A stretch of DNA of 64,000 nt from NCBI GenBank assembly GCA_903830425.1, contig CAIKTR010000112.1, positions 1 through 64,000 of the forward strand, read 5' to 3'. The notes under the pieces are model-generated. The model made no database searches. It was not told the origin of the DNA and saw nothing but the letters and a program-made list of their open reading frames with translations. Shown here piece after piece: positions 38,142 through 55,407 of the stretch (within the stretch, counting starts at the first letter, position 1; every line of letters begins with the position of its first letter). This stretch comes from an uncultured Opitutia bacterium (GTDB taxonomy: Bacteria; Verrucomicrobiota; Verrucomicrobiia; Opitutales; Opitutaceae). The position numbers were made by a program, and so were the translations under genes.

Positions 38142-38633
38142 ATGCCTCACGCCACACCGCGGGTCGGAATCATCATGGGCAGCACGTCGGACTGGGAGAC
38201 GATGCAGCACTGCACGCAGACGCTCGACCAGCTCGGCGTCCCGTACGAAAAGCGCGTGATCAGCGCCCACCGCACGCCGCAGCTGGCGTTCGAGTGGTGC
38301 GGCGGGGCGGAGGCCCGCGGGCTGCAGGTCATCATCGCCGCCGCCGGCGGCGCCGCGCACCTCGCCGGCGTGGCCGCGGCGCTCACCCCGCTCCCCGTGC
38401 TCGGCGTGCCGATGGAGTCGGCGTCGCTCAAGGGACTCGATTCGCTCCTCTCGATGGTGCAGATGCCGGGCGGCATCCCGGTCGCGACGTTTGCCATCGG
38501 CAAGCCCGGCGCGATCAACGCCGCGCTGTTTGCCGGCGCGATCCTCGCGCTCGGCGACCCGCGGACCAAGGCGGCGCTCGAGGCCTACCGCGCGGCGCAG
38601 ACGCAGAAGGTCGCCGCGGCCACGCTGCCGTGA
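38142..38633 (+). CDS. purE: 5-(carboxyamino)imidazole ribonucleotide mutase
   Basis: A 163-residue class I PurE, which converts N5-CAIR to 4-carboxy-AIR in de novo purine synthesis. Diagnostic parts are [15 protein letters not shown] at the N terminus (phosphate-binding GSxSDW loop), SAHRTPQ with the catalytic His, [38 protein letters not shown] and [20 protein letters not shown]. The length is typical. PurK is not adjacent. The gene follows the terminator by 18 bp, so its promoter must lie in a very short gap, and a CTTATGC motif overlaps the start codon. Cytoplasmic, octameric in the family. Confidence 0.96.
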
Positions 38634-38652
38634 CCCGCGTCGCCGGGGCGCG

Positions 38653-39147
38653 CTAGTTTTTCCGGGCCGCGGCCAGCGGGGCCGGCTGGTCGGGCACGCC
38701 GGTGTCCATGACGTACTTCCACGTGCCGTCGGGCTGGCGCTTCCAAATGGTCAGGAACCAGCCGGCATGCCGGCTCTCCTTGCCGCCGGCGCCGGGGCGG
38801 CGCGACTCGTAGCGCCCGTAGTTGTAGCCGAGGGTGCCGTCGTCGGACACGTCGGTGTACAGGGCGGACCAGGTCAGCGTCTCGCCCGGCTGATCCGGGC
38901 CGATCCGCGCGCGCACCGCCTCCGGTCCGCGATGTCGGCGCGGGTCGGTGTCGAGGAAGGCCACGTCGGGGGCCGCGAAGTGCTCGAACGCGGCCAGAAG
39001 GCCCTTGGCCTGGGCCAGCGCGCAGAAGGCCTCCTCCATCCGGGCCACCTCGAGCTTCAGTTTTTCCCGGTCCGGCGCGGCGGCCGAGAGGGCGGGGCCG
39101 GCGGCGAGCGCGGCCGCGAGGAGCAGGGACCGGGGGTGCAGGTTCAT
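38653..39147 (-). CDS. Exported SnoaL/DUF4440-like (NTF2-fold) protein
   Basis: A 164-residue protein with a signal peptide (RSLLLAAALAAGPALSAAA) and an NTF2-fold domain: EVARMEEAFCALAQAKGLLAAFEHFAAPDVAFLD, AVRARIG, LTWSALYTDVSDDGTLGYNYGRYESR and GWFLTIWKRQPDGTWKYVMDTG. Such small secreted DUF4440/SnoaL-like domains may bind small hydrophobic molecules; no catalytic residues can be assigned. Convergent with purE (19 bp gap). Confidence 0.8.
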   Translation of the reverse strand: MNLHPRSLLLAAALAAGPALSAAAPDREKLKLEVARMEEAFCALAQAKGLLAAFEHFAAPDVAFLDTDPRRHRGPEAVRARIGPDQPGETLTWSALYTDVSDDGTLGYNYGRYESRRPGAGGKESRHAGWFLTIWKRQPDGTWKYVMDTGVPDQPAPLAAARKN

Positions 39148-39217
39148 GTTGTCCGCCAGGTTGGCGCGGGCCTCCGCCCGAGGCGATCAATTCTGGGTCA
39201 GCCGGGCCGCCCCGGGG

Positions 39218-39745
39218 TCATTGGACGCGCTTGACGAACACCACGCGGTTGGCGGGCACGATGAACATCCGGTAGCCCCCGAAGCTGCGGGTGATGATGA
39301 CCTCGGGGTTCACCAGCTTGGGGGTGAAATAGTGGGTGTCCGGCATCCGCTGCTGCCAGATCTGGCCGTTATCGAGCACAAAGACGGCCCGGCCGGTGAA
39401 GCTCTCGATGACACCCTCGATCTTGGCGTGCAGTTCCTCCTCGGTGACCAGGCGCTTGGCGGGCGTGACCTGCTCGGCGCCGAAGGCCGCGGCGGACTTG
39501 TCGGTGGAGTGGACTACGGCCTCGGCCGGTTTGGCGGGGCGTGGAGGGGGGAGCGCCTGCCGGTGGCGGGCGAGGGCCCCATCCAGGAAGGAAAGCTCCT
39601 CCGGGGTGAGCTTGTTCAGTCCGGCGCGGGCGAACTCCTCCGGCGTGAGGGTCTCCGCCAGCGAATGGGGGGCGGGGCCGGATGCCGCCCGCAGGGGACA
39701 GGCCAGAAGCAGCAGGCTGGTCAGCAGGGCAAGGGTGGGGCGCAT
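39218..39745 (-). CDS. Exported protein of unknown function
   Basis: A 175-residue protein with a signal peptide (MRPTLALLTSLLLLACPLRA). A helical segment follows (ETLTPEEFARAGLNKLTPEELSFLDGALARH), then a beta domain with EGVIESFTGRAVFVLDNGQIWQQRMPDT and VIITRSFGGYRMFIVPANRVVFVKRV. The 'FVLDNGQIW' plus 'GYRMFI' pattern recurs in small secreted proteins of unknown role that resemble SH3-like domains. This is one of few genes here with a Shine-Dalgarno-like AAGGAG 12 nt before the start. Same strand as the SnoaL-like gene. Confidence 0.7.
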   Translation of the reverse strand: MRPTLALLTSLLLLACPLRAASGPAPHSLAETLTPEEFARAGLNKLTPEELSFLDGALARHRQALPPPRPAKPAEAVVHSTDKSAAAFGAEQVTPAKRLVTEEELHAKIEGVIESFTGRAVFVLDNGQIWQQRMPDTHYFTPKLVNPEVIITRSFGGYRMFIVPANRVVFVKRVQ

Positions 39746-39792
39746 GATCCGGGGCGGCTCCTTTCAGGACCTTATGCCCCGAGGGGGCAAGC

Positions 39793-39835
39793 GCAGCCTT
39801 TCAACAGGTATGGGCACAAAGGCTGCAAACCAGCC
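39793..39835 (+). promoter_or_regulatory. Alternative hairpins upstream of the second TonB receptor
   Basis: A 9 bp stem, GCAGCCTTT at 39793-39801 with AAAGGCTGC at 39818-39826, overlaps a second possible stem, GGCTG at 39821-39825 with CAGCC at 39831-39835. The two cannot form together. The region lies about 180-220 bp before the receptor start, in a gap that is clearly less GC-rich than the coding sequence. Whether it is transcribed is not known. A further small palindrome, ACGTT-CGT-AACGT, is at 39895-39907. Confidence 0.35.
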
Positions 39836-40009
39836 TCTCGACGGTGTCCCATCTGCCTGCAGGCGCTCACTTCTTGTCGTAAGACCGGCTAATGACGTTC
39901 GTAACGTAGATGTTGCACTTCATGGCCATCCAAGCCAACACAGCGCTAAGTTCAACTTAGCTACCAAGCCGGTTAACTTGCAACACACACAACACAAACT
40001 GATAAAACT

Positions 40010-42817
40010 ATGACTACAAGCAACTTCCGTTCGCGGACGTTTCTGGACTCGCTGACGCTATTGGCAGCGGGTCTGTTCGCAGTTTCTGGCGCATTCGCCC
40101 AGAATACCGCTGCGCCTGCTACTACCACGCAGGCGAAGGATAAGGCGATCATGATGGAAAAGTTCGACGTTACGGGCTCCTACCTGCCTGTGGCGGCCAA
40201 TGCGGTGGCGATCCCGGTGATCACCGTGGACAGCAAGACCATTGAGAACTCGGGCAACAACACCAGCGTGCTCGAGATCCTGCGCAAGACGGTGCCGCAG
40301 TTCAGCGGCAACGGCAACTTGGGCAGTTCGAACGCCAACGTCAGCAGCGGTTCCACCAACGGTGGCTCGATGCTCGCGCTGCGCAACACCACGACCCTGG
40401 TCCTGATCAACGGCCGCCGCGTGGCCTATTCCCCCGTGAGTTCCTCCGGCGGCTACCAGTTTGTCGACGTCAACATGATCCCGGTGGCCGCGATTGAGCG
40501 CATCGAGGTCCTGGCCGACGGCGCCTCCGCCATCTACGGCTCCGACGCCGTGGCCGGGGTGGTGAACATCATCCTGAAGTCCGACTTCCAGGGCTTTGAG
40601 ATTGGCGCCCGTTACGGCTACGCGACCGGCCAGGGCCACCAGGCGGTGCGCTCGGGTTACATCGTGGGCGGCGTCAGCAACGGCAAGACCAGCATCACGA
40701 TTTCCGCTGAATGGACGAAGGAAGACCCGATCATGGCCTACGAGCGGCCCTACTCGGCGGTCACCTACGGCACACCGACCTTTGCCGGTTCGGTCAACAT
40801 CGGCGGCAGCTTCTACTACCTGAACCCGACCACCAACACGCCGACCGTGGCTCCCGGCGGCACCAGCACCGCTGGCCTGATCAGCGCCGGCACCTACTCC
40901 GGTCCCCGCACCCAGGGTGCGCAGATGGAGCTCTTCAACCTCTCGCGGTACGTGACGCAGACGATCCAGAATGAGCGCCAGAGCTTCGCGACGTCGTTTG
41001 AGCACCACGTCAGCGACCAGCTGCGCTTCTTCGGCGACCTGCTGTACGTCAGCACGCAGACCGCCTCGCAGATCAACGGCCAGCCGATCAACACCACGCA
41101 GGCGATGCTGGACATCTACTACACCCTGACGGGCGGGACCGCAGGTTCCGACAACGGGAAGGTTCCGGCCGGGCAGTTCGGCAATCCCTTCAACACGGAT
41201 GTCACCGGCCGCAACCGTCTGGTGAACAATCCCCGTCAGTACCTCGACGACACCACCTCCATCCGGGGCGTCTTCGGTGCGGGCGGCGCGATCGGCGGCT
41301 CTGACTGGACCTGGGAAGCGGCGACGGACTACAACCGCGCCAACCAGCAGTACAAGAACCCGGGCGTCATCAACCAGCCCAACCTGAGCGCCGCGGTGCT
41401 CGCGGGCGACTTCAACTTCTTCTCGCGCACGCCGATCACGGCCGCGCACCTTGCCGCCGACCAGATTGTCGGCACCGCGACGGGTGGTTTCATCAGCCAG
41501 ATGACCAACTACGACGTCAAGGTCCGGGGCAAGCTGTTCGACCTGCCCGCCGGCTCGCTCGACGTCGCCGCCGGCGCCGAGATCCGCAAGGAGAACCTCT
41601 CCGCCACGGCCGACCCGCTCAGCCAGATCAACCCGGTCACGGGGGCCCTCGGCTGGAGCGGTGCGACCACGCTCTATCCGTTCGACTCCAACCGCAAGGT
41701 GACCTCGCTGTTCGCCGAAGTCCGCATTCCGGTGGCCAAGGACGCCCCGGGCGCGCACCTCCTCGAACTGTCCGGCGCCGTCCGCCGCGAGAGCTACAGC
41801 GACACGACCGACCCGACCGTGCCGAAGGTGACGATCCGCTACCTGCCGGTAAACGACGAGTTCGCCATCCGCGGCACGTACTCGAAGTCCTTCACGGCGC
41901 CCGCGCTGTTCAACCTGTTCGGCCCGTCCAGCATCGGCTACACGGACCCCTTCACCCTCAATACATTTGGGGGCGGCACGGTGGCCGACCTGCAGACCAA
42001 CTCGATGAGCGGCTCGAACCCGGACCTGAAGCCCTCCAACTCCAAGAACTACACCCTCGGGGTCGTTTACTCCCCGAAGGCGCTCAAGGGCTTCTCGGTG
42101 TCGCTCGACTACTGGAACATCAAGCAGACGGACCTCGTCTCGTCGATCGGCACCACCACCATCCTCCAGGATGTGGAGACCCTCGGCACGGCGTCGACCT
42201 ACCTCAACAAGGTGCACTTCTACAGCTTCACGGGTGCGCATCCGACGGCCAAGGGGCAGATCAGCTCCTATGCCCCGGATGACATCTACGTCATCGACAG
42301 CCTGGTGAACATCGCCGGGGTCAAGCTCTCCGGCTTCGACGCCAAGCTGGCCTACACCTACACCGCCGACAGCGTCGGTCGCTTCGACTTCAGCTCGAAC
42401 ATCGGCATCTACTCGAAGTATGAGGTCACCTCGCTCCCGGGCACCGCGCCCGAGGACGACACCGGCCTCGCGAGCTTTGCCAACGGCACCCTGCCGCGCT
42501 GGTCGAGCTACAGCACGGTCGAGTACACCCGCGGGGCTTGCGTCGGCTTCCTCGGCTGGCGCCACATCCCGTCCGTGAAGAACATCGTCACGGATGAGGC
42601 GCTCGCGGCGTTCGACAGCTTCGACGTCTCGGCCTCCTACGTCTTCGGCTCCGGCGTCAAGTTCCTGTCCGGCTCGAAGATCACGCTCGGCGTCACGAAC
42701 GTGCTGAACAAGTTCGGCCCGCTCGCCCCCGACATCTTCACCGATTCCGGGGTCGACACCGAGACCTACGGCGCGATGGGCCGCTTCGTCTACGTCGACT
42801 ACAAGATCAAGTTCTAA
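40010..42817 (+). CDS. TonB-dependent outer-membrane receptor
   Basis: A 935-residue receptor with a signal peptide (SLTLLAAGLFAVSGAFAQ) and an exposed segment with MEKFDVTGSYLPV. The plug (about residues 55-200) has NNTSVLEILRKTVPQFSG, LALRNTTTLVLINGRRVAY, IERIEVLADGASAIYGSDAV and AGVVNIILKSDFQG; the rest is barrel, ending in MGRFVYVDYKIKF. The ligand is unknown. It stands alone, with a 264 bp AT-richer upstream region and a strong terminator at 42854-42885. Codon choice (many GGC/AAC/AAG and some U-ending codons) suggests high expression. Its leader resembles that of the receptor at 45379. Confidence 0.95.
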   Translation: MTTSNFRSRTFLDSLTLLAAGLFAVSGAFAQNTAAPATTTQAKDKAIMMEKFDVTGSYLPVAANAVAIPVITVDSKTIENSGNNTSVLEILRKTVPQFSGNGNLGSSNANVSSGSTNGGSMLALRNTTTLVLINGRRVAYSPVSSSGGYQFVDVNMIPVAAIERIEVLADGASAIYGSDAVAGVVNIILKSDFQGFEIGARYGYATGQGHQAVRSGYIVGGVSNGKTSITISAEWTKEDPIMAYERPYSAVTYGTPTFAGSVNIGGSFYYLNPTTNTPTVAPGGTSTAGLISAGTYSGPRTQGAQMELFNLSRYVTQTIQNERQSFATSFEHHVSDQLRFFGDLLYVSTQTASQINGQPINTTQAMLDIYYTLTGGTAGSDNGKVPAGQFGNPFNTDVTGRNRLVNNPRQYLDDTTSIRGVFGAGGAIGGSDWTWEAATDYNRANQQYKNPGVINQPNLSAAVLAGDFNFFSRTPITAAHLAADQIVGTATGGFISQMTNYDVKVRGKLFDLPAGSLDVAAGAEIRKENLSATADPLSQINPVTGALGWSGATTLYPFDSNRKVTSLFAEVRIPVAKDAPGAHLLELSGAVRRESYSDTTDPTVPKVTIRYLPVNDEFAIRGTYSKSFTAPALFNLFGPSSIGYTDPFTLNTFGGGTVADLQTNSMSGSNPDLKPSNSKNYTLGVVYSPKALKGFSVSLDYWNIKQTDLVSSIGTTTILQDVETLGTASTYLNKVHFYSFTGAHPTAKGQISSYAPDDIYVIDSLVNIAGVKLSGFDAKLAYTYTADSVGRFDFSSNIGIYSKYEVTSLPGTAPEDDTGLASFANGTLPRWSSYSTVEYTRGACVGFLGWRHIPSVKNIVTDEALAAFDSFDVSASYVFGSGVKFLSGSKITLGVTNVLNKFGPLAPDIFTDSGVDTETYGAMGRFVYVDYKIKF

Positions 42818-42853
42818 GGTCCGCCTGATCCCAGGCTCGACCGTTCCTCTCAA

Positions 42854-42885
42854 GGCGGCCCGCATGTGCGGGCCGCCTTTTTTTT
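42854..42885 (+). terminator. Rho-independent terminator after the second TonB receptor
   Basis: An 11 bp perfect stem, GGCGGCCCGCA at 42854-42864 with TGCGGGCCGCC at 42867-42877, is followed by eight T residues (42878-42885). The stretch from here to the peptidase stop at 43114 (about 230 bp) holds no gene I can support; it is GC-rich with a CCGCCCCG/CGGGGCGG inverted repeat near 43060-43082 but no T-run. Confidence 0.92.
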
Positions 42886-43113
42886 GGCCGGTCCGCGGGC
42901 TCCGTCCACCCATGGCCCGTGCTCCGGCGGCGGGCCCGATGAACCCCGTCGCGTGGGCCGGACTTCCGGCCGGCGGCGTAGGGCCTGCTGGGACAGGGGA
43001 GGCGGCGCGACGGTGGGCGCGCGGCAACCCCGGCTCGCGGCGGCGCGGCCGCACCCCGCCCCGCCGCCGGGGTCGGGGCGGATCGGCCGGCCCAGGAGGA
43101 GGGAGGGGGAGGA

Positions 43114-45204
43114 TTACTTCCCCTTGCCGGCGTCCGGCACGACCACGGGGGTGCCCAGCTTCACGCGGCCTGCCGGCACGTTCATGTTCCGGGAGAGGAA
43201 GTCCTCCACGCGGCGGTAGAAATCGAGCTTGTTCTCGAGTTTGCGGAAGCCGTGCCCCTCGTTTTCCTCGATCAACGCCTCGTAGGTCTTGCCGGCCTGC
43301 TTGAGGCGCGCCTCGAGGACCTGCCACTGGTCGAACCGGACGCGCGGGTCGTTCTTGCCGTAGGCGGCAAAGAGGGGGACCCGGATGTTGGCGATATGGG
43401 CGATCGGATTGACGGAGCGGAGGAGGTCGGCGTCCCGCAGGGGGTGCAGCTCGCGGATTTCCTGGCCCTCGCGGATGACCCGGGGCGGGGCGAAGCTGCG
43501 CGGGGCCCCGCGCGCCTCCAGGTCGGCCACGCCGACGTAGTCGACGCCGCAGCAGTAGAGGTCGGGGGTGAGCGTGAGCCCGGCCAGCACGGCGTAGCCG
43601 CCGTAGCTCGCGCCGAAGATCCCCACGCGGGCCGGATCCGCCAGGCCCTGGTCGATGCACCATTTCACGCCGTCGGTGAGGTCGTCCTGCATCTTGCGGC
43701 CCCATTGACGGTAGCCGCCCAGCTGGAACTGGAGCCCGTAGCCACCGCTGCCGCGGTAGTTGACCTGGAGGACCGCGTAGCCGCGGTTGGCGAGGTATTG
43801 AATCTGGTCGCTGTAGCCCCAGGTGTCGCGCGGGCCAAACGGACCGCCGTGCGGCACGAGGATCATCGGCAGGTTTTTCGCCTCCCGGCCGGCGGGCACC
43901 GTCAGATAGCCCGCCACCTCGAGGCCGTCCCGCGCCCGGAACCGGATGGGCCGCATCGGGGCCATTTTCTCGGGGTTGATGTTGCTGCGGGCGCGGCCGA
44001 TCTGGCTGAGCTCCTGCTTGGTGGCGTTGTAGAGGTAGAACGTGCCGGGGTCCCGGTCGCTGGCGGCCCGGACGACGTAGAGGCTGCCGTCGCTCGTGGC
44101 GCTGACGAGCGAGTTGCGGGTGCCGGGCAGGGCGCCGTTGAGGTCGCGCATCAGCTGGGCCATCTCCGGATCGAGCCATTGGACCTCGGGGTAGTCGTCA
44201 TCGTAGCCGATGCCGGCGAGCTCGCCCTTGGCGTTGAAGATCAGGCCGTCGACGGCGGCGCGGGAGGAAAGCCCGCCGCGGCGGTAATTGGCGAGCCGGT
44301 CCCCGGGCTCGACCCGGGGGTGGGTGAAGATCACCGGGCCCCAGGCTCCGGTCTCGGGGTCGAGCGTGCGCAGGGCGGACTTGTCGTGCTCGAGGAAGGA
44401 TTTGACGTAAAGGGTGCGGCCGTCCTTGGCGAAGACGCTGGGCCGCCAGTGCGGCTCGATCGGGGCGGCCTCCTCAATGAACAGGGACGTCTCCTTGCTG
44501 AACTCCCCGATCGTGCGCCACTCGGTCTTGGCGTCCGGGCGGTATTTGACGCGGATGGGCTCCTCAAAGTCGGTGCAGATGGCGACCCGGATGACCCCGG
44601 CGGCGTCGGCGATCCAGGCCCGGGCGTTGATGTAATTGCGCTCCTCGACGTTTTCCTTGCCGGTGCGGATGTTGACCTTGATGACATCGCCCAGAAACGA
44701 GCTGCCGCGGATGCGGTTCATCAGGATGTGGTCGGGATCCTTCGGCAGCAGGCTGATGAGCGACTTGGGCAGGTCGCGCTCGCTGGCGGGGGCATCGCCC
44801 TGGCCGGCGCCATCGGCGGTGGCCTCGACGCGCTCGAGCTTGTTAATGACGAGGAGATTCCCCCCATCCGGGTCGCAGGCGAACATGCCGTACTGCTCGC
44901 GGCCGCCGAACTGCTGGGCAAAGAGCAGGCGGTCCTTTTTCGCCCAGACAAATGCCACGACGCTTTCCTCCTTCATGTTGGTGAGCCAGCGGATCTTCTT
45001 CGTCTCGCGGTCGAGGATCGCCAGGTTCATCCGCTGGTTGCGGGGGGCCAGCCAGGTCAGGTAGCGGCCGGTGGGCGAGATGCCCACGGACTGGATGTCA
45101 GGGTCGGAAAAGATCGTCTCGAGGGGAATCAGGGCCGGTGTTTCGGCCCGCACCGTGGTGCCCAAAGCCACCACAAGCAGGAGGTTAAGGAGGAGGGTCT
45201 TCAT
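43114..45204 (-). CDS. S9 family (prolyl oligopeptidase-type) serine peptidase, secreted
   Basis: A 696-residue peptidase from the ATG at 45204. The signal peptide is MKTLLLNLLLVVALGTTVRA. A seven-bladed propeller-type N-terminal domain (about 25-400; SVGISPTGRYLTWLAPRNQR) precedes a catalytic alpha/beta hydrolase domain (about 420-680). The triad is S533 in GASYGGYA, D619 in GKNDPRV and H651 in ENEGHGF; LVPHGGPFGPRDTWG is the oxyanion region. It is of the acylaminoacyl-peptidase/S9C type, probably periplasmic, trimming short peptides. It is divergent from the TonB receptor at 45379 across 174 bp. A close paralogue lies downstream of that receptor at 48501. Confidence 0.93.
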   Translation of the reverse strand: MKTLLLNLLLVVALGTTVRAETPALIPLETIFSDPDIQSVGISPTGRYLTWLAPRNQRMNLAILDRETKKIRWLTNMKEESVVAFVWAKKDRLLFAQQFGGREQYGMFACDPDGGNLLVINKLERVEATADGAGQGDAPASERDLPKSLISLLPKDPDHILMNRIRGSSFLGDVIKVNIRTGKENVEERNYINARAWIADAAGVIRVAICTDFEEPIRVKYRPDAKTEWRTIGEFSKETSLFIEEAAPIEPHWRPSVFAKDGRTLYVKSFLEHDKSALRTLDPETGAWGPVIFTHPRVEPGDRLANYRRGGLSSRAAVDGLIFNAKGELAGIGYDDDYPEVQWLDPEMAQLMRDLNGALPGTRNSLVSATSDGSLYVVRAASDRDPGTFYLYNATKQELSQIGRARSNINPEKMAPMRPIRFRARDGLEVAGYLTVPAGREAKNLPMILVPHGGPFGPRDTWGYSDQIQYLANRGYAVLQVNYRGSGGYGLQFQLGGYRQWGRKMQDDLTDGVKWCIDQGLADPARVGIFGASYGGYAVLAGLTLTPDLYCCGVDYVGVADLEARGAPRSFAPPRVIREGQEIRELHPLRDADLLRSVNPIAHIANIRVPLFAAYGKNDPRVRFDQWQVLEARLKQAGKTYEALIEENEGHGFRKLENKLDFYRRVEDFLSRNMNVPAGRVKLGTPVVVPDAGKGK

Positions 45205-45378
45205 GATTTGATTGAGAGGCAGACAGGGGTTTTCCCGGATCGAGTCAATGCCCGGACATGCTGTCACAGAAATAATGGGTTGCAAACCTCGCGGCGCCTC
45301 CGCTGTGATTGAAAGCGACACAACCATCAACTGGGTGCGGATTACGTTCTCCAGTACCAACACAACCAAACTGACACT

Positions 45379-48300
45379 ATGAACAGATCGCTGCTATCAG
45401 CTGCGTTTGCGGCTGCGCGTTATACGATGATCGCGTTGCTTGGGGCCGGCCTACTCGCCGCCCAGGAAGTTAAGAACGCCGACGTCAAGACCACCGAGAC
45501 CAAGAAAACCCAGACCAAGGACGACGGCGAGCTGCAGAAGCTTGAGAAGTTCGAGGTCACGGGCTCCCGCATCAAGACGATCGAAGCCGAAGGTCCTTCC
45601 CCGGTTAAGATCATCACCCGGACGGATATCGAGAACTCTGGCCGCACCAATCTCACCGATTTGCTGCGCGATCTGCCTGAGGCCGGTTTCACGGGCATCA
45701 ACGAAGGCGGCACCACCGCCGCGGTCCGTGGTTCCACGGCCCTCAGCCTGCGCGATCTCGGCGCCAACAACACGCTGGTCATCGTCAACGGCCGCCGCAC
45801 GGTCACCACGGCCAACGCCTCGGGTGGCACGACCTTCGTCGACCTCAACCGTTTCCCGATCGCCATGGTCGAGCGCGTTGAAGTCCTCAAGGACGGCGCC
45901 TCCGCTGTGTACGGTGCCGACGCCACCGCCGGTGTCGTGAACATCATCCTCCGCAAGGATTTCAACGGCACGGAATTCGGCTACTCCTACGGCAACTCCA
46001 CCAAGACCGACGTGGCGGAGAAGAGCTTCAACTTCTTCGGCGGCGCCGCTTCCGGCAAAGCCAGCATGACCGTGGGTGTGACCAACTTCACCCGTGGCGC
46101 CCTCAAGGGTTCTGACACGAACTTCGGCAACAACGCCGACCTGACGAACCGCTACCTCGCGAAGGGCGGGGTTATGGCTGAAGAGGCCGCCCTCGGCCTG
46201 TTCGACCTCCGCTCCGGCACCGGCCCGCAGGCCCGTGTCAGCGTCACCGGCGTCGCCGCCGGCCAGATCAACGGCTCGAACGGGGTCAACATCCCCGGCC
46301 TGCCCGTCGGCACCGCGATCACGCGTCTCCCGGGCACCGGCGGTGTGGTTCCCTCGGGCGCCGGCGCGCTCCTCGGCACCCTGTCCTCGGCCACGCCGAG
46401 CTTCACCAGCGCCCCCATCATCGGGACCGGCGGTGCGTTCAACGCCACCGCTGCCGCCACCTATGAGGCGCAGCGCCTGTCGGCCGCGGGCAATCCGTCC
46501 AACCTCTACAACTTCCAGGACTTCGTCTGGCTGACCCCGGAAGTGAACCGCACCGGCATGTACACGACCTTCCGCTATGACCTGGCGAAGAACATCGAGC
46601 TCTATGCCGAGGCCTCCTACCAGCAGAACAAGTCGCACATCGAGCTCGCGCCCTCGCCGATCTCGACCGCTGGTGACAACAACATCCTCATGCCGAAGAC
46701 CAATTACTACAATCCCTTCGGCGTGGACCTGAACTTCAACTTCCGCCCGATCGACATCGGCGCGCGCCAGGCCGACATCATCAACAACGACTACTCGTTG
46801 CTCTTTGGTGCCCGCGGCACGGTGCTGGACCGTTTCGACTGGGACATGGCCTACACCTACGGTTATGACGAGGTGGTCGACCTGACCAGCAACGCCATCT
46901 CCGAGAGCCGCCTGCGGGCCCAGATGGCCAAGAGCACCCCGGATGCGTTCAACATCTTCGGCGGCGCCTCCTACAAGAACCCGAAGGCGGTCCTGGATGC
47001 CGTCCGCGTTCAAACCCAGAAGGCCGGCAACTCGGCCCTCGACCTGTGGGACGCCAAGATCTCCGGCGATCTCTTCGAGATCCCCACCGGCACGGTCGGC
47101 ACCGCGGTTTCCGTGGAAGTCCGCAAGGAGAAGTTCAACGTCGCCAACGACGCCATCTCCACGACCCTGGACGACATCATCGGCCAGGTCAGACTCGCCG
47201 CGGCGACCAAGTCGGACCGCACGGTCAAGTCGGCGGCGGCTGAGTTCCGCGTGCCGCTGGTCAAGACCGCCACGCTGCCCTTCGTCTACAAGCTCGACCT
47301 CAACCTCGCGGCCCGCTTCGAAGACTTCAGCGACGGCTACAACAGCGGCGTCAAGCCGTATGCCGGCCTGCGCTACCAGCCGATCAAGGACCTGCTCCTC
47401 CGCGGCTCGTACTCCAAGACCTTCCGCGCCCCGACCCTGCCCCAGCTCTACGGCGGCGAGTCCCAGTCGCTCCCGAACGGTCTGTCCGACTTGCGTCGTC
47501 CCCAGGCCCTCACGGGTGACCCGTTCGACGGCGCCTCGACCCAGCGTCTGGTGCGCGTCGGTGGCAATCCGGCCCTCACGCCTGAGACCGCCGATGTCTA
47601 CCAGTACGGCTTCGTCTACGAGCTGCCGTTCGCCTACGTGAAGGGCCTCTCCGTTGGGGCCTCGTTCTTCCACATCGAGCAGAAGAACATCATCACCAGC
47701 GTCAGCACCACCTACATTCGTACCAACGAAGTGGGCGGCGGCACCGCCGGCCTCGTCATCCGCGACCCGGGCACCGAGACCTACACCAACAACACGGCCT
47801 CCCCGATCAACGTCCTGAGCGGCCCGAACAACGCCGTGACGGCGATCGCGCCCGGCCAGAGCACGACGGTCCCCGGCCGCATCCAGTCCATCCTGTCGGC
47901 CACGCTCAATCTCGCCTACCAGCGGGTTGAGGGTTACGACTTCGAGGTGAACTACAAGAAGCGCACGGCCACCTTCGGCCAGTTCAGCATGCGCAATACG
48001 CTCACCTACACGAAGTTCTACGGCTTCACCACGACGGCTGGTAACACGAATCCCGCCAGCGCCGTTGGTCACGACGGTTATCCGCGCGTCAAGCTCCAGA
48101 GCTCCCTGGCCTGGGCCCTCAAGGAATACACCGCGGGCGTGTCGGCCAACTACACCTCGCACTATGGCGACGTGAACTACGACGGCTACGAGATCGACGA
48201 GTACTACACCGTGGGTGCGTACTTCGGCTACGAGATTCCCGCCGGCATCAGCACCTGGCTGGAAAACACCCGCGTCACGGTGGGTGTGGACAACGCCCTC

Positions 48301-48405
48301 GATAAGCAGCCGCCGCTGTACTACAATGCGGTTGGCTACGACCAGAGCATGATTGGCCGCCCCGTGGGCCGCTTCTGGTACGCTGCGATCAAGAAGACGT
48401 TCTAA
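45379..48405 (+). CDS. TonB-dependent outer-membrane receptor flanked by S9 peptidases
   Basis: A 1008-residue receptor with a signal peptide (MIALLGAGLLAAQ region) and a Lys/Thr/Asp-rich stretch, then LEKFEVTGSRIKT. The plug (about residues 60-210) has KIITRTDIENSGRTNLTDLL, LSLRDLGANNTLVIVNGRRT, VERVEVLKDGASAVYGADAT and AGVVNIILRKDFNG. The barrel ends with GRPVGRFWYAAIKKTF, a typical C-terminal Phe. The first Met is followed by 14 residues before the hydrophobic core; Met17 is an alternative start. Both neighbours are secreted S9 peptidases, so oligopeptides are the probable ligand. Codon use suggests strong expression. A terminator follows at 48432. Confidence 0.95.
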   Translation: MNRSLLSAAFAAARYTMIALLGAGLLAAQEVKNADVKTTETKKTQTKDDGELQKLEKFEVTGSRIKTIEAEGPSPVKIITRTDIENSGRTNLTDLLRDLPEAGFTGINEGGTTAAVRGSTALSLRDLGANNTLVIVNGRRTVTTANASGGTTFVDLNRFPIAMVERVEVLKDGASAVYGADATAGVVNIILRKDFNGTEFGYSYGNSTKTDVAEKSFNFFGGAASGKASMTVGVTNFTRGALKGSDTNFGNNADLTNRYLAKGGVMAEEAALGLFDLRSGTGPQARVSVTGVAAGQINGSNGVNIPGLPVGTAITRLPGTGGVVPSGAGALLGTLSSATPSFTSAPIIGTGGAFNATAAATYEAQRLSAAGNPSNLYNFQDFVWLTPEVNRTGMYTTFRYDLAKNIELYAEASYQQNKSHIELAPSPISTAGDNNILMPKTNYYNPFGVDLNFNFRPIDIGARQADIINNDYSLLFGARGTVLDRFDWDMAYTYGYDEVVDLTSNAISESRLRAQMAKSTPDAFNIFGGASYKNPKAVLDAVRVQTQKAGNSALDLWDAKISGDLFEIPTGTVGTAVSVEVRKEKFNVANDAISTTLDDIIGQVRLAAATKSDRTVKSAAAEFRVPLVKTATLPFVYKLDLNLAARFEDFSDGYNSGVKPYAGLRYQPIKDLLLRGSYSKTFRAPTLPQLYGGESQSLPNGLSDLRRPQALTGDPFDGASTQRLVRVGGNPALTPETADVYQYGFVYELPFAYVKGLSVGASFFHIEQKNIITSVSTTYIRTNEVGGGTAGLVIRDPGTETYTNNTASPINVLSGPNNAVTAIAPGQSTTVPGRIQSILSATLNLAYQRVEGYDFEVNYKKRTATFGQFSMRNTLTYTKFYGFTTTAGNTNPASAVGHDGYPRVKLQSSLAWALKEYTAGVSANYTSHYGDVNYDGYEIDEYYTVGAYFGYEIPAGISTWLENTRVTVGVDNALDKQPPLYYNAVGYDQSMIGRPVGRFWYAAIKKTF

Positions 48406-48431
48406 GTCGCGTTTCCCACGCGTTTAATTCC

Positions 48432-48463
48432 AGGGCGGCCGGTGCAAACCGGCCGCCCTTTTT
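48432..48463 (+). terminator. Rho-independent terminator after the third TonB receptor
   Basis: A 12 bp perfect stem, AGGGCGGCCGGT at 48432-48443 with ACCGGCCGCCCT at 48448-48459, closes a GCAA tetraloop and is followed by a T-rich run to 48463. The downstream S9 gene starts only 38 bp later, so it is either read through or has its own promoter. Confidence 0.92.
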
Positions 48464-48500
48464 CTTTGCTGCTTGGGGCGGGTGAGGCTGGGATTCGTCC

Positions 48501-50507
48501 ATGCCTCTCGCCCCCTCCCGGTTGCTGGCTGCGTTCCTCCTGCTCCTGGCCGCGCCGCTGCTGCGCGCCGCCGATCCCGCCGTCCCGCCCGTGCTCCCGC
48601 TCGATGTCTTCTTCGGCGGCAACAGCATCAGCCGGCCGGCGCTCTCCCCGACCGGCCGCTATCTGGCCTGGCTCCAGCCGGCCAACAACCGGCTCAACCT
48701 GGTCGTGCTCGACCGCCAGCTGGGCCGGAAGCTGCGGCTCACTGACATGAAGGAGGAGAACGTCGTCAATTTCGAGTGGGCCGGGCCTGACCGACTCTTC
48801 TTCTACCAGCAGTACAAGGGGCAGGAGTCCTTCGGCACCTACGCCGTCAACGCCGACGGCACCCAGCTCACCGTCCTCCAGCAGGCGACCCAGCGCGAGG
48901 GCGACCAGATCGAGAATGGCGACACCCGCGCCTACGGCGTGATCGACCGCCTGCCGGACGATCCGCGGCACATCCTCATCGAGGTCATCCGGGGCTCGTC
49001 CGGGCTCGGGGACCCCCACCTGCTCGACATCTACACGGGCAAGAGCCGGAAGCTGATGAACAACCTCGGCAAGATCCGGAGCTGGATGACCGACCATCGC
49101 GGCGTCATCCGCCTCGCGATCGCCAACGACGAGAAGGAGGAGTTCGCCGCCGTGTTCTACCGCGCCGCGGAGGACGCCCCCTGGACCGAGATTGAGCGCT
49201 TCCCCTCCGACGGCCCCACCTGGTCCCCGCTGGGCTTCGACGGCGACAACCAGACCCTCTGGGTCCGGTCCAATCGCGGCCGGGCCACCGAGGCCCTCTA
49301 CACCTACGACCCGGGGGCGAAGAAAATCCTGCGCGAGGTGCTGGCCGACCCGGTCTACGACGCGGGCGGCATCATCTATTCCCGCCACCTCGGCAAGGTG
49401 ATCGGGGTGACGATCGATCGCGAGCGCCCGGAAACCCGCTGGCTCGACGACTCCTACCGCCAGCTGGCCCGGGACATCGACGGCGTGCTCCCCGGCACCC
49501 ACAATTCCATCATCAGCCGGACCGAGGACGAGTCCCTCGTGCTCATCCGGGCGTGGAGCGACCGCGACCCGGGCACGCTGTACCTGCTGGACACGCGGAA
49601 GCTCGAGCTCAAGCGGCTGGCCCGGCTCAACGACCAGGTGTCGCCCGCGCAGATGGCGGCCATGACCCCGGTCCAGTTCCCGGCGCGGGACGGTCTGACG
49701 ATCCATGCCTATCTCACGCTGCCGACGGGTCGTGCGCCGAAGGGGCTGCCGCTGATCATCAACCCCCACGGCGGCCCCTATGGGATTCGCGATTCCTGGG
49801 GGTTTAATCCGGAGATCCAGTTCCTCGCCAACCACGGCTATGCGGTCCTTCAGGTCAACTACCGCGGCTCCGGCGGCTACGGCGTCGCCTTCGAGGAGGC
49901 GGGCTACCGCCAGTGGGGCCTGCGGATGCAGGACGACCTGACCGACGCGGTGCGCTGGGCGGTCGGGGAGGGGACGGCGGACGCGCGGCGCGTGGCGATT
50001 TACGGGGCGAGCTACGGCGGCTACGCCGCCCTGGCCGGCCTGACGATGACCCCCGACCTTTATGTCTGCGGGATCAACTATGTGGGCGTCGCCGACATTC
50101 CCCGCCTGGGCCTGCTGGAGAGTTTCGGCCGCTACGAGGCGCCGTTCAAGCGGTACGTGGCCCGCCGCTGGGGCCACCCGACCCTCGACGCCGCCCAGCT
50201 CAAGGCCACTTCGCCGATCAACCTCGTGGAAAAAATCCGCGTGCCGCTGCTCATGGCCTACGGGCGCTACGACCCGCGGGTGACCTACGACCAGTACATC
50301 GTGCTGGAGTCCGAGCTGAAAAAGCACGGCAAGAGCTACAAGAACATCACCCTCGGCAACGAGGGCCACGGCTTCAACAAGTACGAGAACCGGATCGGCT
50401 TCTACCGGGAGATGGAGGCCTTCTTCGCCGAGCACCTGCCGAGCGACGTCGGCGGCGCCCACGTCATCATCAAGCCGGCGCGCGTGATCGACCTGCCCGC
50501 CAAGTAG
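48501..50507 (+). CDS. S9 family (prolyl oligopeptidase-type) serine peptidase, secreted
   Basis: A 668-residue paralogue of the peptidase at 43114-45204. It has a signal peptide (SRLLAAFLLLLAAPLLRAA), a beta-propeller domain (SRPALSPTGRYLAWLQPANNR onward) and the catalytic domain with INPHGGPYGIRDSWG, S504 in GASYGGYA, D591 in GRYDPRV and H623 in GNEGHGF. It is likely a periplasmic oligopeptidase working on peptides taken up by the neighbouring TonB receptor. It lies 95 bp downstream of that receptor but beyond a terminator. The two S9 proteins share long identical stretches (for instance YAVLQVNYRGSGGYG), so a local duplication is likely. Confidence 0.93.
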   Translation: MPLAPSRLLAAFLLLLAAPLLRAADPAVPPVLPLDVFFGGNSISRPALSPTGRYLAWLQPANNRLNLVVLDRQLGRKLRLTDMKEENVVNFEWAGPDRLFFYQQYKGQESFGTYAVNADGTQLTVLQQATQREGDQIENGDTRAYGVIDRLPDDPRHILIEVIRGSSGLGDPHLLDIYTGKSRKLMNNLGKIRSWMTDHRGVIRLAIANDEKEEFAAVFYRAAEDAPWTEIERFPSDGPTWSPLGFDGDNQTLWVRSNRGRATEALYTYDPGAKKILREVLADPVYDAGGIIYSRHLGKVIGVTIDRERPETRWLDDSYRQLARDIDGVLPGTHNSIISRTEDESLVLIRAWSDRDPGTLYLLDTRKLELKRLARLNDQVSPAQMAAMTPVQFPARDGLTIHAYLTLPTGRAPKGLPLIINPHGGPYGIRDSWGFNPEIQFLANHGYAVLQVNYRGSGGYGVAFEEAGYRQWGLRMQDDLTDAVRWAVGEGTADARRVAIYGASYGGYAALAGLTMTPDLYVCGINYVGVADIPRLGLLESFGRYEAPFKRYVARRWGHPTLDAAQLKATSPINLVEKIRVPLLMAYGRYDPRVTYDQYIVLESELKKHGKSYKNITLGNEGHGFNKYENRIGFYREMEAFFAEHLPSDVGGAHVIIKPARVIDLPAK

Positions 50508-50542
50508 GGCGGCGGCCGCGGGTCAGGCCGGGGTCCGCGCGG

Positions 50543-52384
50543 CTATTTCCACCCCACCGCGAGCACATCCCGCCGCTGGGCCCAGTCCAGCTCGGGCAGG
50601 CCGCGGGTCGGGGCCACCCGGCCCAGCACGGCCCGGGCCGTGCGCGCCGGCACCGTGACGCGGCCGTCGGTCAGCGCCAGCCGTTCGACCCGGACCTGGC
50701 CGATCCCCAGCAGCACGAGCCGCAGTTCCGGCAGGTGGGCGCGGTCGCCGTCCCAGACGACCGGGGCGGCATGCTCCCGCACGACCCGGCCGCGGGGCTG
50801 GGCGCCGCGGGTCTGAAACTCGATCGTGAGGCACTCCTGGCAGTTGGCCCACGTGCCGTCCGGCTGGCGCTGCTCGACGCGCACGAGCTGCAGCGCGGGG
50901 GCGAAATTCCGCACCGCGTAACAGAGCTGCCAGCGCCCGCCGAACACCGGCCGGCCCTGTTGCCAGGCCCGCAGGCGGGTCGCGTCCTTCGCGAGGATGA
51001 GCTCGTTCGTCCCGCGCCGGCGCCGGTCCCGGGTGAAGCCCCACATGGCCCGCGCGGCGCGGCGGCCCGCGACGAGGGCCTGCGCGAAGCGCCGCCCCTC
51101 GGCCGGCGTGGCCAGGCCGCGCGCGGCGCGGCGCACGAACACGTCGCGCTGGGCGAGATAGCGCCGGAAGGCCAGGCTCGCGCGCAGCGGGGCCGGCAGC
51201 GCCGGCGTCCCGGCGGCCTGCGTGCAGAACCGCTCCTCGGCCCGGTAGGGCGCCAGCGGCTCGCGGCGCGAGATCGTGTCCCACCGGTCGTTGATCTGCC
51301 ACCGCGGGTAGCCGCCGAAGGCGTGGCGGTCGCCCGCCAGCGCCACGCGGGCGGACTTTTTCGCCGCGCTGCGGCCGAACGCGCGGGCAAAGCCCCGCGC
51401 CAGCATGGCCGCCGGATCCGTCAGGCCGGGGTTCAGCCACAGGCAGGCGGCGGCGGCATCGACCACCGTCGTCATTTCCATCGCGAGCCGGAAGGGTTCC
51501 CACGAGGTGACCAGCAGCCCCTCGATCCCGAGCCGCTCGCCGTGCCGCCACCACGAGAGGATGTTCTCCAGCCGGTCGGCGAAATGCGGCAGCGGCTCGT
51601 AGCGCGCCGAGCCGTTCATCGGGCAGCCCCACACCGTCAGGCCCCGGGCCCGCAGCTGCTCGCCGACGCGGCTCTCCGCGAAATTGAACAGCTCCACCCG
51701 CGGCCGGCGCGGGAACCCGTAGTAATACCATTCGTACGCGATCACGTCTGCCGGCAGCAGCGGAATCGCCGCGGGCAGGAAATACAGCATGTCGGCCCAC
51801 AGCCCCATGCGCAGCCCGAGCGACCGGGTGAGGGCGTGCAGCCGGTTCACATGGCCCGCGAAGTGCCCGGCGAGCCCGATCCGGGCGATCTCCGCCAAGC
51901 TCAGCGGATGGCGGCCGAGCTGGAAGGACTCGTCGAGCCCGACGTGGACCTTGCCGGCGGTGCAGAAGGGCGCCATGTCGCGCAGCAGCAGCTCGGCGAC
52001 CTCCAGGGTGCGCGGGTGCAGCGGGCAGATTTGGCCGCCGGGGAAGGGCGAGCCGTCGGCCGCCCGCAGCTCGTTGAGGTCGCGCAGCTCGGGCGTCTTG
52101 ATCAGGTACTCGGTGTGCCCGAGCAGGTTCACGATCGGGACGACCTTGATCCCCACGCGGGTCGCCGCGTCCACCAGCCGCGTGAACTGCGCGTAGCTGT
52201 AGGCGTCGCGCCGCGCGACCCCGGGCAGGCTGGGGAACTCGACGGCGTCCTCCAGGTGGAGGTGCAGCTCCTGATAGCCCCACTCGGCATAGCGGGGCAG
52301 TTGGGCGAGCAGCCAGTCCAGCCGCTCCACCTGGCGGGCGAGGTCCCATTGGAAGGAGCGGATCGGGGAAAACGCGGGGGGCAT
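50543..52384 (-). CDS. Glycoside hydrolase family 20-like protein
   Basis: A 613-residue protein with a beta/alpha barrel similar to beta-N-acetylhexosaminidases. Segments are YQELHLHLEDAVEFP, GIKVVPIVNLLGHTEYLIK and VHVGLD151-E152-S, where the D-E pair matches the GH20 catalytic Asp-Glu. YEWYYYGFP and GLLVTSWEPF follow. No signal peptide, so cytoplasmic action on small oligosaccharides is implied. The C-terminal half (about residues 330-610) is unusual: a helical Arg/Ala-rich region, then a beta domain with FGGRWQLCYAVRNFAPALQLVRVEQRQ. Canonical GH20 enzymes carry an extra N-terminal domain, missing here. The exact substrate is unknown. Confidence 0.75.
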   Translation of the reverse strand: MPPAFSPIRSFQWDLARQVERLDWLLAQLPRYAEWGYQELHLHLEDAVEFPSLPGVARRDAYSYAQFTRLVDAATRVGIKVVPIVNLLGHTEYLIKTPELRDLNELRAADGSPFPGGQICPLHPRTLEVAELLLRDMAPFCTAGKVHVGLDESFQLGRHPLSLAEIARIGLAGHFAGHVNRLHALTRSLGLRMGLWADMLYFLPAAIPLLPADVIAYEWYYYGFPRRPRVELFNFAESRVGEQLRARGLTVWGCPMNGSARYEPLPHFADRLENILSWWRHGERLGIEGLLVTSWEPFRLAMEMTTVVDAAAACLWLNPGLTDPAAMLARGFARAFGRSAAKKSARVALAGDRHAFGGYPRWQINDRWDTISRREPLAPYRAEERFCTQAAGTPALPAPLRASLAFRRYLAQRDVFVRRAARGLATPAEGRRFAQALVAGRRAARAMWGFTRDRRRRGTNELILAKDATRLRAWQQGRPVFGGRWQLCYAVRNFAPALQLVRVEQRQPDGTWANCQECLTIEFQTRGAQPRGRVVREHAAPVVWDGDRAHLPELRLVLLGIGQVRVERLALTDGRVTVPARTARAVLGRVAPTRGLPELDWAQRRDVLAVGWK

Positions 52385-52497
52385 GGCTGCACCATGCGGG
52401 GGCGGGGGAAAAAATGAAGGTTGAAAGCGCCGGGCCGGCCGGCCCGCCCGCGGCCGGCGCTTGAACCCGCCGCGGATCCCGCCGTAGCTTCGCCCGC

Positions 52498-52992
52498 ATG
52501 AACGTCCAGATCCGCCAGCTCTTCATTTCCCCCGGCCACAACTTCTTCGGCCGGCACGGCCAGGCGGCGGGGGAGCATGCGACGGTGGAGGTGGCGGGGA
52601 TCGTGTGCCGCGCCGGCCGCGGGGTGGAGGGCGACCGGTTCCTGGACTACAAGCCCGACTACCCGGGGCAGATCACGTTTTTTTCCTGGGAGGTGGTGGC
52701 GGCCGCCCGGCGGAAATTCTCGCGGCCCGAGCTGTCCGCCGGGGCCTTCCGCCGGAATGTCGTGGTCGAGGGCCTGGACCTGCCCGCGCTCATCGGCCGG
52801 CGGTTTTCGCTCGGGGGCGTGGACTTTGCCGGCGTGGTTGAGTCCAAGCCCTGCTATTGGATGGAGCAGGCGGTGGGGCCGGGGGCCGAGGCCTGGCTGC
52901 GGGGCAACGGCGGCCTGCGCGCGCGGATCCTCCGCGACGGCCCGCTGGCGGTGGGGCCCGCGGAGCTAGGCCTGGCCGAGGCGGCGCCGTAG
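52498..52992 (+). CDS. MOSC domain protein
   Basis: A 164-residue stand-alone MOSC domain. Landmarks are QLFISPGHNFFG at the start, GIVCRAGRGVEGDRFLDY (family GxxGDRF motif), GQITFFSWEVV, LSAGAFRRNVVVEGLDLPALIGRRFSLG and the conserved Cys in ESKPCYWMEQ, then GARILRDGPLAVG. MOSC domains bind a molybdenum cofactor or carry persulfide sulfur. The protein is probably cytoplasmic and of unknown specific role. Its 3' end overlaps the convergent CCA-adding enzyme gene by 27 bp. Confidence 0.88.
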   Translation: MNVQIRQLFISPGHNFFGRHGQAAGEHATVEVAGIVCRAGRGVEGDRFLDYKPDYPGQITFFSWEVVAAARRKFSRPELSAGAFRRNVVVEGLDLPALIGRRFSLGGVDFAGVVESKPCYWMEQAVGPGAEAWLRGNGGLRARILRDGPLAVGPAELGLAEAAP

Positions 52993-54375
52993 CCACGCCA
53001 CGGCGCCGGTCTCGTCGGTGAAGGCCCCGTCGAGCTGCGCCTCGAAGGCTTCGTCGAGGAGGGGCTTGAACTCCGGTCCCGGGGTGCGGCCCAGGGCCAC
53101 GAGATGGCGGCCGAGCGCCAGGGGGCGCGGGGCGGCCCGCTCCAGCGCCAGGGCGCGGGCCCGGTCCTGGAGCTGGTCGATGCGCAGGAGGGTCTCGGCG
53201 GAAACCAGGGGCGGGCGGCCGGCGTGGTCGGCCCGCATGACGCACACCAGCTCGTCGATCGTCGCCGGCGCCAGCCGGCGGGCCAGCCGGCGCACGCTCG
53301 GGTCGGTGAACTCCGTCTGCCCGTGATGGTGCGCCAGGTGGTGGACCACGAGCGCGCGGACCGGGTCCGTGAGCTCCAGCGGCGCCCCGATCCGGCGGAG
53401 AAAGGTCTCCGTCAGCGGGCCGCCCGCCGCCTCGTGCCCCGGGCTGATCCAGCGCAGCCGGCCCCGGCGCTCGGCCTGCTCCGTCGTGGCCGGCTTGCCG
53501 AAGTCGTGGGCGAGCACCGCCAGCATCAGCACCCGGCGGACCGGGGCCGCGGCGGACTGCCAGGCCTCCTGCGCGGCGAGGGCGTCGAGGCAGAGCTGGG
53601 TGTGGACGAAGACGTCGCCTTCCGGATGCCATTCCGGCTCCTGCGGCGTGCCGGCGAGGGCGGCGAGCTCGGGAAAGTGCCGCAGCCAGCCGGTCGCCGC
53701 GAGCACCTCGAGCCCGCGGGAGGGCTTGCGGGCGGCCACCGCCCATTTGTCCCACTCGCCCCAGACCCGCTCGACCGGCAGCTCGGCAAAGGTGTCCGCG
53801 ATGCTCCGGCACAGGGCGGCGGTCTCGGGGGCGAGGGTGAAGTCAAACCGCGCGGCGAGCTGAAACGCGCGCAGCACCCGCAGCGGGTCCTCCCCGAACG
53901 CGGCGCTGGTGTGGCGCAGCACGCGGGCGCGCAGGTCGGCCTGGCCGCCGTGCGGATCCAGGATCTCGCCGCTGAACGGGTCGCAGGCGATGGCGTTGAC
54001 GGTGAAGTCGCGCCGCGCCGCCGCCTCGGCGTCGCTGAGCGTGGCGTCCGGCGCCACCGCGAACCCGCGGTGGCCGGAGCCGGTCTTGGATTCGCGCCGG
54101 GGCAGGCTGAAGTCGTACTCGGCGCCGGTGCGGCTGCGGGCCTTGATGACGCCGAAGCTGCGGCCCACGACGTCGGTGGCGCCGAACGGCGCAAGCGCCC
54201 GGTGCAGCGTGGCAAAGTCGACCCCGGCCACCTCGATGTCGAAATCCTTGGGCGTCAGGCCGAGCAGCCAGTCGCGCACGCCGCCGCCCACGAGCCGCGG
54301 GCGGCCCACGCGGCGCACCGCGTCGAGGAGGACGCGCAGGTCGGCCGGCAGAGTGAGGGGCGAGGGGGGGCTCAT
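52966..54375 (-). CDS. CCA tRNA nucleotidyltransferase / poly(A) polymerase family protein with HD domain
   Basis: A 469-residue class II nucleotidyltransferase. The head (about residues 25-175) has LVGGGVRDWLLGLTPKDFDIEV with the GGxVRD nucleotide loop and catalytic acidic residues, RRDFTVNAIACDPFSGEILDPHGG (RRD motif) and LRVLRAFQLAARFDFTL. The C-terminal part carries an HD domain (HTQLCLDALAAQ, VLAHDFGKPATTEQ, HHLAHHHGQTEF), as in E. coli-type CCA enzymes with phosphohydrolase activity. It would add or repair CCA ends of tRNA, though a poly(A) polymerase role cannot be excluded from sequence alone. The MOSC gene overlaps its 3' end by 27 bp. Confidence 0.9.
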   Translation of the reverse strand: MSPPSPLTLPADLRVLLDAVRRVGRPRLVGGGVRDWLLGLTPKDFDIEVAGVDFATLHRALAPFGATDVVGRSFGVIKARSRTGAEYDFSLPRRESKTGSGHRGFAVAPDATLSDAEAAARRDFTVNAIACDPFSGEILDPHGGQADLRARVLRHTSAAFGEDPLRVLRAFQLAARFDFTLAPETAALCRSIADTFAELPVERVWGEWDKWAVAARKPSRGLEVLAATGWLRHFPELAALAGTPQEPEWHPEGDVFVHTQLCLDALAAQEAWQSAAAPVRRVLMLAVLAHDFGKPATTEQAERRGRLRWISPGHEAAGGPLTETFLRRIGAPLELTDPVRALVVHHLAHHHGQTEFTDPSVRRLARRLAPATIDELVCVMRADHAGRPPLVSAETLLRIDQLQDRARALALERAAPRPLALGRHLVALGRTPGPEFKPLLDEAFEAQLDGAFTDETGAVAWLRRRLGQA

Positions 54376-54409
54376 GGGCGCGGGGGCGGGGGCGGGCTCC
54401 GCCGGCAGG

Positions 54410-54823
54410 TTATCCCCGGATGCCGGGCTCCGGCGATTTTTCCTGGACGCAGGCGGCCGCCCCGAGGCAGAGCCAGCCGGCGAGCAGGGCGACGCCGCCG
54501 CAGGGGGTCACGGGGCCCAGCCAGCGCGGGCCGCCGGCCGCCAGGCCGTAGAGCGATCCGGAAAAGAGCACGCTGCCGACGCACCAGCACCGGGCGGCCC
54601 AGCCGACGCGGCGCTGGGCCTCGCCCCCGGCCAGCCGCAGCCAGGCCGCGGCGCCGAGGAGGGCGGCGGCGTGCAGGAGCTGGTAACGGGCGGCCGTCTC
54701 CCAGGCGAGGGTGGTGCCCCGCTCCAGCAGGCCGGCCCGGAGCGCATGGGCGCCGAACGCCCCGAAAGCGACGCCGGTGGCGCCCAGGAGCCCGGCGGCG
54801 AGGAGAGTGGAGCGGTGGTTCAT
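54410..54823 (-). CDS. DUF423 family membrane protein
   Basis: A 137-residue protein with four hydrophobic segments. The hallmark N terminus is LLGATGVAFGAFGAHALR, followed by TAARYQLLHAAALLGAAAWL, CWCVGSVLFSGSLYGLAAG and VTPCGGVALLAGWLCLGAAA. These fit DUF423 (YgdD-like) inner-membrane proteins of unknown function. The start at 54823 sits 34 bp upstream of the CCA-enzyme start on the same strand, so the two may share a transcript. Confidence 0.88.
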   Translation of the reverse strand: MNHRSTLLAAGLLGATGVAFGAFGAHALRAGLLERGTTLAWETAARYQLLHAAALLGAAAWLRLAGGEAQRRVGWAARCWCVGSVLFSGSLYGLAAGGPRWLGPVTPCGGVALLAGWLCLGAAACVQEKSPEPGIRG

Positions 54824-54925
54824 GGCAAGTGGCTCTCACGCTCGCACATCCACGCTTCAAAACAAGGCTGGGATTGGCCGGCGGGCTCCGCCGGAGGCGG
54901 GGCCGCAACCGGCAGAAAACGGGGG

Positions 54926-54953
54926 TTGACACTCTTCCGCGAAACCCTAGCTC
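54926..54953 (+). promoter_or_regulatory. Candidate sigma-70 promoter of rplM-rpsI
   Basis: A perfect -35 hexamer, TTGACA (54926-54931), a 16 bp spacer and TAGCTC as -10 (54948-54953) lie just before rplM. Transcription would start near 54960, leaving a leader of roughly ten bases before the ATG at 54969. This is the only clear -35 consensus I saw in the window. Confidence 0.5.
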
Positions 54954-54968
54954 TTGGCCTCTTTTCCC

Positions 54969-55397
54969 ATGAAAACCTTCCTCGCCAAAAAGGAGACGGT
55001 GCAGTCCAAGTGGCATCTCATTGATGCTGAGGGCACCGTGCTCGGCCGTCTCGCGGTGAAATCCGCCAATCTCATCCGCGGCCGTCACAAGGCTTCCTAC
55101 ACCCCGACGATCGACACCGGTGACCACGTCGTGATCATCAACGCCGAGAAGGTCGTCCTCACGGGCCGGAAGGAAGAGAAGAACGAGTACATGTTCTTCT
55201 CCGGGTTTGTCGGCGGCGAGAGCTACCGCAAGCTGTCCCTGATGCGCGAGCGCCACCCCGAGTTCATCATCGAGCACGCCGTCAAGGGCATGCTGCCGAA
55301 GAACCGGATCGCGGCCAAGATGCTGACCAAGCTCCATGTTTTTGCCGGCCCGAAGCACACGCACGAGGCGCAGAATCCCGTCAAAACGACCGTCTAA
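54969..55397 (+). CDS. rplM: 50S ribosomal protein L13
   Basis: A 142-residue L13, the usual length. Recognisable sequence is [53 protein letters not shown] and [32 protein letters not shown]. It initiates 50S assembly and binds 23S rRNA. The start is the ATG at 54969. Ten bp separate it from rpsI, the standard rplM-rpsI pair. The leader shows no Shine-Dalgarno sequence (TCTTTTCCC before the ATG). Confidence 0.97.
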
Positions 55398-55407
55398 TTT
55401 CCGCCCC

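Follow-up and report, generated by a model that had tools for sequence, protein, structure and literature searches.

Gene arrangements in which a receptor is encoded next to a hydrolase are already known. In Pseudomonas aeruginosa, pfeE, which codes for a periplasmic esterase hydrolysing ferric enterobactin, is found beside the receptor gene pfeA (PMC8001512). In lasso isopeptidase clusters (AtxE2 or SpI-IsoP), an S9/POP-like β-propeller hydrolase is encoded beside a TonB-dependent receptor (TBDT), the two being in some cases divergently transcribed close to the lasso operon (PMC9266682, PMC11006600). In SusCD/RagAB systems, TonB-dependent import through the outer membrane is encoded together with ligand-processing enzymes. 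The locus described here, from an uncultured Opitutia bacterium (Verrucomicrobiota, Opitutaceae), combines TBDTs with peptidases of family S9. In the literature searched, we found no paper on TBDT–S9 pairs in Verrucomicrobiota and, as far as that literature showed, the pairing is undescribed in this phylum. We consider the locus to be a receptor–peptidase unit for import and processing, likely of an oligopeptide or peptide-like ligand (probability about 0.6).

The window, i.e., the whole stretch of 64,000 nucleotides analysed, contains the following features:

38142..38633, + strand: purE, one border of a conserved chromosomal slot (synteny)
39218-39745, − strand: small protein, family unassigned, with counterparts near pairs in many relatives (29-75% identity)
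40010..42817, + strand: TBDT1, TonB-dependent receptor, 935 aa (Pfam Plug and barrel; tree position)
42852..42879, + strand: terminator-like hairpin after TBDT1, 12-bp stem and T run
43114..45204, − strand: S9A, S9 peptidase, 696 aa, β-propeller and α/β-hydrolase, signal-peptide-like N-terminus, Ser533/Asp619/His651
45205..45378, no strand: S9A/TBDT2 divergent intergenic region, 174 bp, with conserved GAGTCAAT and GTTGC boxes of putative function (alignment of 17 S9A-clade loci)
45379..48405, + strand: TBDT2, TonB-dependent receptor, 1008 aa, receptor of the S9A-type pair
48432..48459, + strand: terminator-like hairpin between TBDT2 and S9B, 12-bp stem and T run
48501..50507, + strand: S9B, S9 peptidase, 668 aa, S9A paralogue, signal-peptide-like N-terminus, same triad motifs
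50543..52384, − strand: GH20-like protein, second border of the slot; MOSC, pcnB, rplM and rpsI come next (Pfam GH20; synteny)

There are two receptors at the locus, not one, in the order TBDT1, S9A, TBDT2, S9B. TBDT1 is convergent with S9A, S9A is divergent from TBDT2, and S9B lies 3′ of TBDT2 in the same direction. The sequence-only reading of this DNA described one TonB receptor flanked by two S9 peptidase genes: both S9 open reading frames are present as it gave them, with TBDT2 in between, and the second receptor, TBDT1, had gone unmentioned.

S9A and S9B are members of peptidase family S9, with a predicted peptidase activity. Both contain the Peptidase_S9 domain (PF00326 in Pfam, 153 and 155 bits). 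The catalytic Ser533, Asp619, and His651 (S9A numbering) are invariant in an alignment of 60 relatives, and S9B shares with S9A the motifs GASYGG, DPRV, and GHGF; the triads are complete in both peptidases, as had been proposed. Both N-termini read as signal-peptide-like, without lipobox; among the S9 relatives that could be scored by a rough hydropathy count, 42 of 56 have a stretch of this kind. The AlphaFold model of S9A (pLDDT 89.5) has propeller strands over residues 38-404 plus the hydrolase and matches full-length S9 carboxypeptidase, acylaminoacyl peptidase, and DPP4. By sequence profile the best match is 5L8S; by fold, 8WT1 and 5L8S match best. With these S9 acylaminoacyl peptidases and carboxypeptidases, S9A shares the architecture of propeller and hydrolase; on the other hand, the identity is ∼16-20%, and the signal-peptide-like N-terminus and the partnership with a receptor are on the side of the locus described here.

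The signal-peptide-like N-termini and the pairing would fit equally well with S9 enzymes that process, at the surface, the receptor or another envelope protein instead of an imported ligand. However, the usual substrates of S9 propeller enzymes are short peptides, and such a maturation role appears highly improbable. A second alternative is that the S9 enzymes are AtxE-type isopeptidases that linearise an imported lasso peptide or related RiPP, since the known lasso isopeptidases are also S9/POP-like propeller hydrolases beside a TonB-dependent receptor (PMC9266682, PMC11006600). Both S9 proteins do match the isopeptidase model NF033523 weakly (52 and 61 bits), but far under its 400-bit cut-off and with the catalytic half only. 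Transglut_core3 (PF13471, lasso B2) was not found in the bacterium's own genome, with which a foreign lasso ligand would still be compatible, and the sigma/anti-sigma pair typical of lasso clusters is not seen among the annotated recurrent neighbours. Unlike the AtxE2 and SpI-IsoP clusters, the pairs here occur throughout one family of Verrucomicrobiota. On the scores and the missing B2 domain, membership among the lasso isopeptidases was rejected, and we regard the lasso alternative as very unlikely.

In TBDT1 and TBDT2, the Plug (PF07715) and barrel (PF00593) domains both score above cut-off. The structure model of TBDT2 (pLDDT 81.9) has as nearest folds PfeA, PirA, FepA, Cir, and BtuB, and the solved structures nearest to it carry siderophores, cobalamin, or heme, not peptides. 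The suggestion that the locus is a counterpart of SusCD-like systems without SusD was therefore abandoned. The SusC/RagA signature TIGR04057 reaches 20.8 and 24.4 bits in the two receptors against a cut-off of 46.2, the CarboxypepD_reg-like domain (PF13715, PF13620) is found by Pfam in neither of them, the fold is of the siderophore/vitamin receptor type, and SusD/RagB (PF07980) was not found in the genome itself (∼95% complete).

The same structural matches (PfeA, PirA, FepA, and Cir) bring in the main rival to a peptide ligand, a peptidic siderophore, for which the adjoining pfeA and pfeE of P. aeruginosa set a precedent (PMC8001512). TBDT2 would then import a peptidic metal chelate that the S9 enzyme would hydrolyse to free the metal, as in PfeA–PfeE, where the receptor gene likewise adjoins that of a periplasmic ligand-processing hydrolase. 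The substrate of the esterase PfeE, however, is a catecholate siderophore, whereas S9A and S9B are propeller S9 peptidases and not trilactone esterases. Further, similarity of plug and barrel does not define the ligand, and no match to the Fur-box consensus with three or fewer mismatches occurs in the whole window, the consensus being of the E. coli type and possibly not that of this family. This rival is a live one, though we consider it unlikely. A peptide or peptide-like ligand is favoured because the enzymes are peptidases, and peptide uptake by the locus is plausible.

The partnership between receptor and peptidase is real and conserved across the family. Of 200 genomes of the family, 141 contain relatives of S9B. 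Among ∼100 fetched loci, 98 S9 genes could be tested (those with at least 1.5 kb of upstream sequence), and a TBDT is present within 600 bp of the S9 5′ end in 68 of them, in many genera; the loci were picked as best S9B matches, so this fraction describes this S9 group and not all S9 peptidases. The 68 receptors are codirectional (43) or divergent (25), with a median gap of 137 bp between profile-aligned ends. The density of TBDT ends is 1.15 per kb within 600 bp 5′ of S9 versus 0.048 per kb at 0.6-9 kb (∼24-fold). Conservation of this adjacency in relatives was what the sequence-only reading had made its case depend on, and across the Opitutaceae it is conserved. Beside 78 S9 relatives outside the family (in Bacteroidota, Paenibacillus, Burkholderiales, and others), no TBDT was detected with the same profile; as this profile derives from receptors of the family, distant receptors could have escaped it. 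Paenibacillus has no outer membrane. Within the family, some S9 subclades, several of them in the window's own genus, have no TBDT nearby, so an S9 enzyme can function alone.

Orientation and receptor type follow the S9 clade. In the S9A clade, all 17 of the 17 fetched members are divergent from a TBDT, and those of their receptors with sufficient length for tree building group with TBDT2 in a single clade. S9B clusters in the S9 tree with two further codirectional S9 genes; the receptor of one of them, if not of both, belongs to the clade that is sister to that of TBDT2. The S9 and TBDT distance matrices correlate with a Mantel r of 0.83 (0.81 between genera and 0.88 within genus), while 2000 permutations reach at most 0.18. 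Since the correlation holds both between and within genera, the agreement does not come only from shared species history. An orthologue of TBDT2 (at least 57% identity; 57-72% in other genera) is present in 19 of the 19 genomes that carry an orthologue of S9A (at least 59% identity), and both are absent from the other ten same-genus genomes in the draw.

S9A and S9B are 45% identical over 659 columns of a pairwise alignment. Identical runs do exist, as had been remarked (one of 16 residues and four of 7-8 residues), but the two longest, GYAVLQVNYRGSGGYG and GASYGGYA, match the consensus of the S9 relatives, the 16-residue run being within the conserved S9 core, and they are thus no sign of a recent duplication. 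Most of the S9A orthologues from other genera have 72-76% identity to S9A (59-60% in two cases), whereas S9B is only about 45-47% identical to S9A. The S9A/S9B split therefore predates those genera, and any duplication would be ancient. An event of that age would be compatible with the S9 tree, in which the S9A and S9B clades adjoin each other with weak support (SH-aLRT 89). S9 genes flank one or more receptors in nine other fetched genomes, and most of these other S9–TBDT–S9 sandwiches mix S9s of different major clades. The identities and the tree positions rule out recent local copying, and the view that the locus was built by duplication loses its support in that form. As TBDT2 is of the type that partners S9A, we infer that an S9A-type pair was joined here to an S9B-type peptidase. 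TBDT1, on the other side, is related in the tree to receptors that partner another S9 clade elsewhere. At the ends of the S9A–TBDT2–S9B block, no convincing pair of flanking repeats was seen among the largest repeat families listed.

Many pairs share the chromosomal slot that runs from purE to GH20–MOSC–pcnB–rplM–rpsI (38142-55806 in the window, and ∼50 syntenic loci). Among the fetched loci, those at least 19 kb long show one or more border markers at 27 of the 41 S9 genes that neighbour a receptor, versus 2 of the 16 that do not. The content of the slot in receptors and peptidases differs between genomes, which suggests that the range of ligands changes by the exchange of receptor–peptidase pairs. 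Genomes of the same genus have one or two receptors in the slot, with or without S9. In the slot of two genomes (G156 and G113), the receptors are Oar-like (L274 4201-7200 and L308 3128-6163); the former contains a CarboxypepD_reg domain, and a fumarylacetoacetase-like gene adjoins the receptor of G156. The slot could be a hotspot where two abundant gene families gather without any joint function, and the several genomes of the genus whose slot receptors have no S9 partner, as well as the Oar-like receptors elsewhere, would agree with coincidence. Against it, orientation and receptor clade are mostly fixed for each S9 clade, the S9 and TBDT trees agree, S9A and TBDT2 co-occur, and receptor–S9 pairs are found outside the slot too. 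A purely coincidental neighbourhood has therefore little to recommend it.

The annotated neighbours that recur are XdhC, a MobA-like protein, fumarylacetoacetase, PurK, transaldolase, and an RDD protein; neither a dedicated peptide permease nor another peptidase was seen among them, which speaks against the peptide reading. Genes of molybdenum enzyme maturation (XdhC and MobA-like) are repeatedly found by S9A cassettes, upstream of the S9A-type pair in L057, L058, and L064.

A terminator-like hairpin is found in 42 of the 45 codirectional receptor-to-S9 gaps (L052-L229), where ∼4.7 are expected from mononucleotide shuffles, and the distance from the T run of the hairpin to the S9 start has a median of 32 nt. 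This short spacing fits an attenuated readthrough. Hairpins occur also 3′ of 51 of 66 other TBDT genes, yet of only 18 of 107 S9 genes. Since they are common after other TBDT genes, the hairpin between TBDT2 and S9B may simply terminate transcription, and S9B may have a promoter that overlaps it. In the divergent S9A/TBDT intergenic regions (17 aligned), the GAGTCAAT and GTTGC boxes are conserved, and the GAGTCAAT box is similar to a −35 hexamer when read in the direction of the S9 gene.

In the receptor–peptidase unit that we favour, TBDT2, driven by TonB, would carry the ligand through the outer membrane. S9A and S9B, probably exported by Sec, would act in the periplasm or at the cell exterior and cut this ligand into pieces importable across the inner membrane. 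The ligand is most likely an oligopeptide or another peptide-like molecule, of a size that S9 propeller enzymes can accommodate. S9A is transcribed divergently from TBDT2, with which it may be co-regulated, and the hairpin between TBDT2 and S9B probably holds the expression of the peptidase under that of the receptor.

Extended to the family, there may be a repertoire of cognate receptor–peptidase pairs, each with its own ligand, exchanged or turned over at the purE/GH20–MOSC–pcnB slot, with the hairpin setting the ratio of receptor to peptidase; we propose such a variable peptide-acquisition locus of Verrucomicrobiota tentatively. Uptake of peptides or peptide-like compounds across the verrucomicrobial outer membrane without SusD would be a process undescribed in the literature searched, and, with their joint evolution, co-occurrence, and mostly fixed orientation, receptor and peptidase form a concrete, testable unit.
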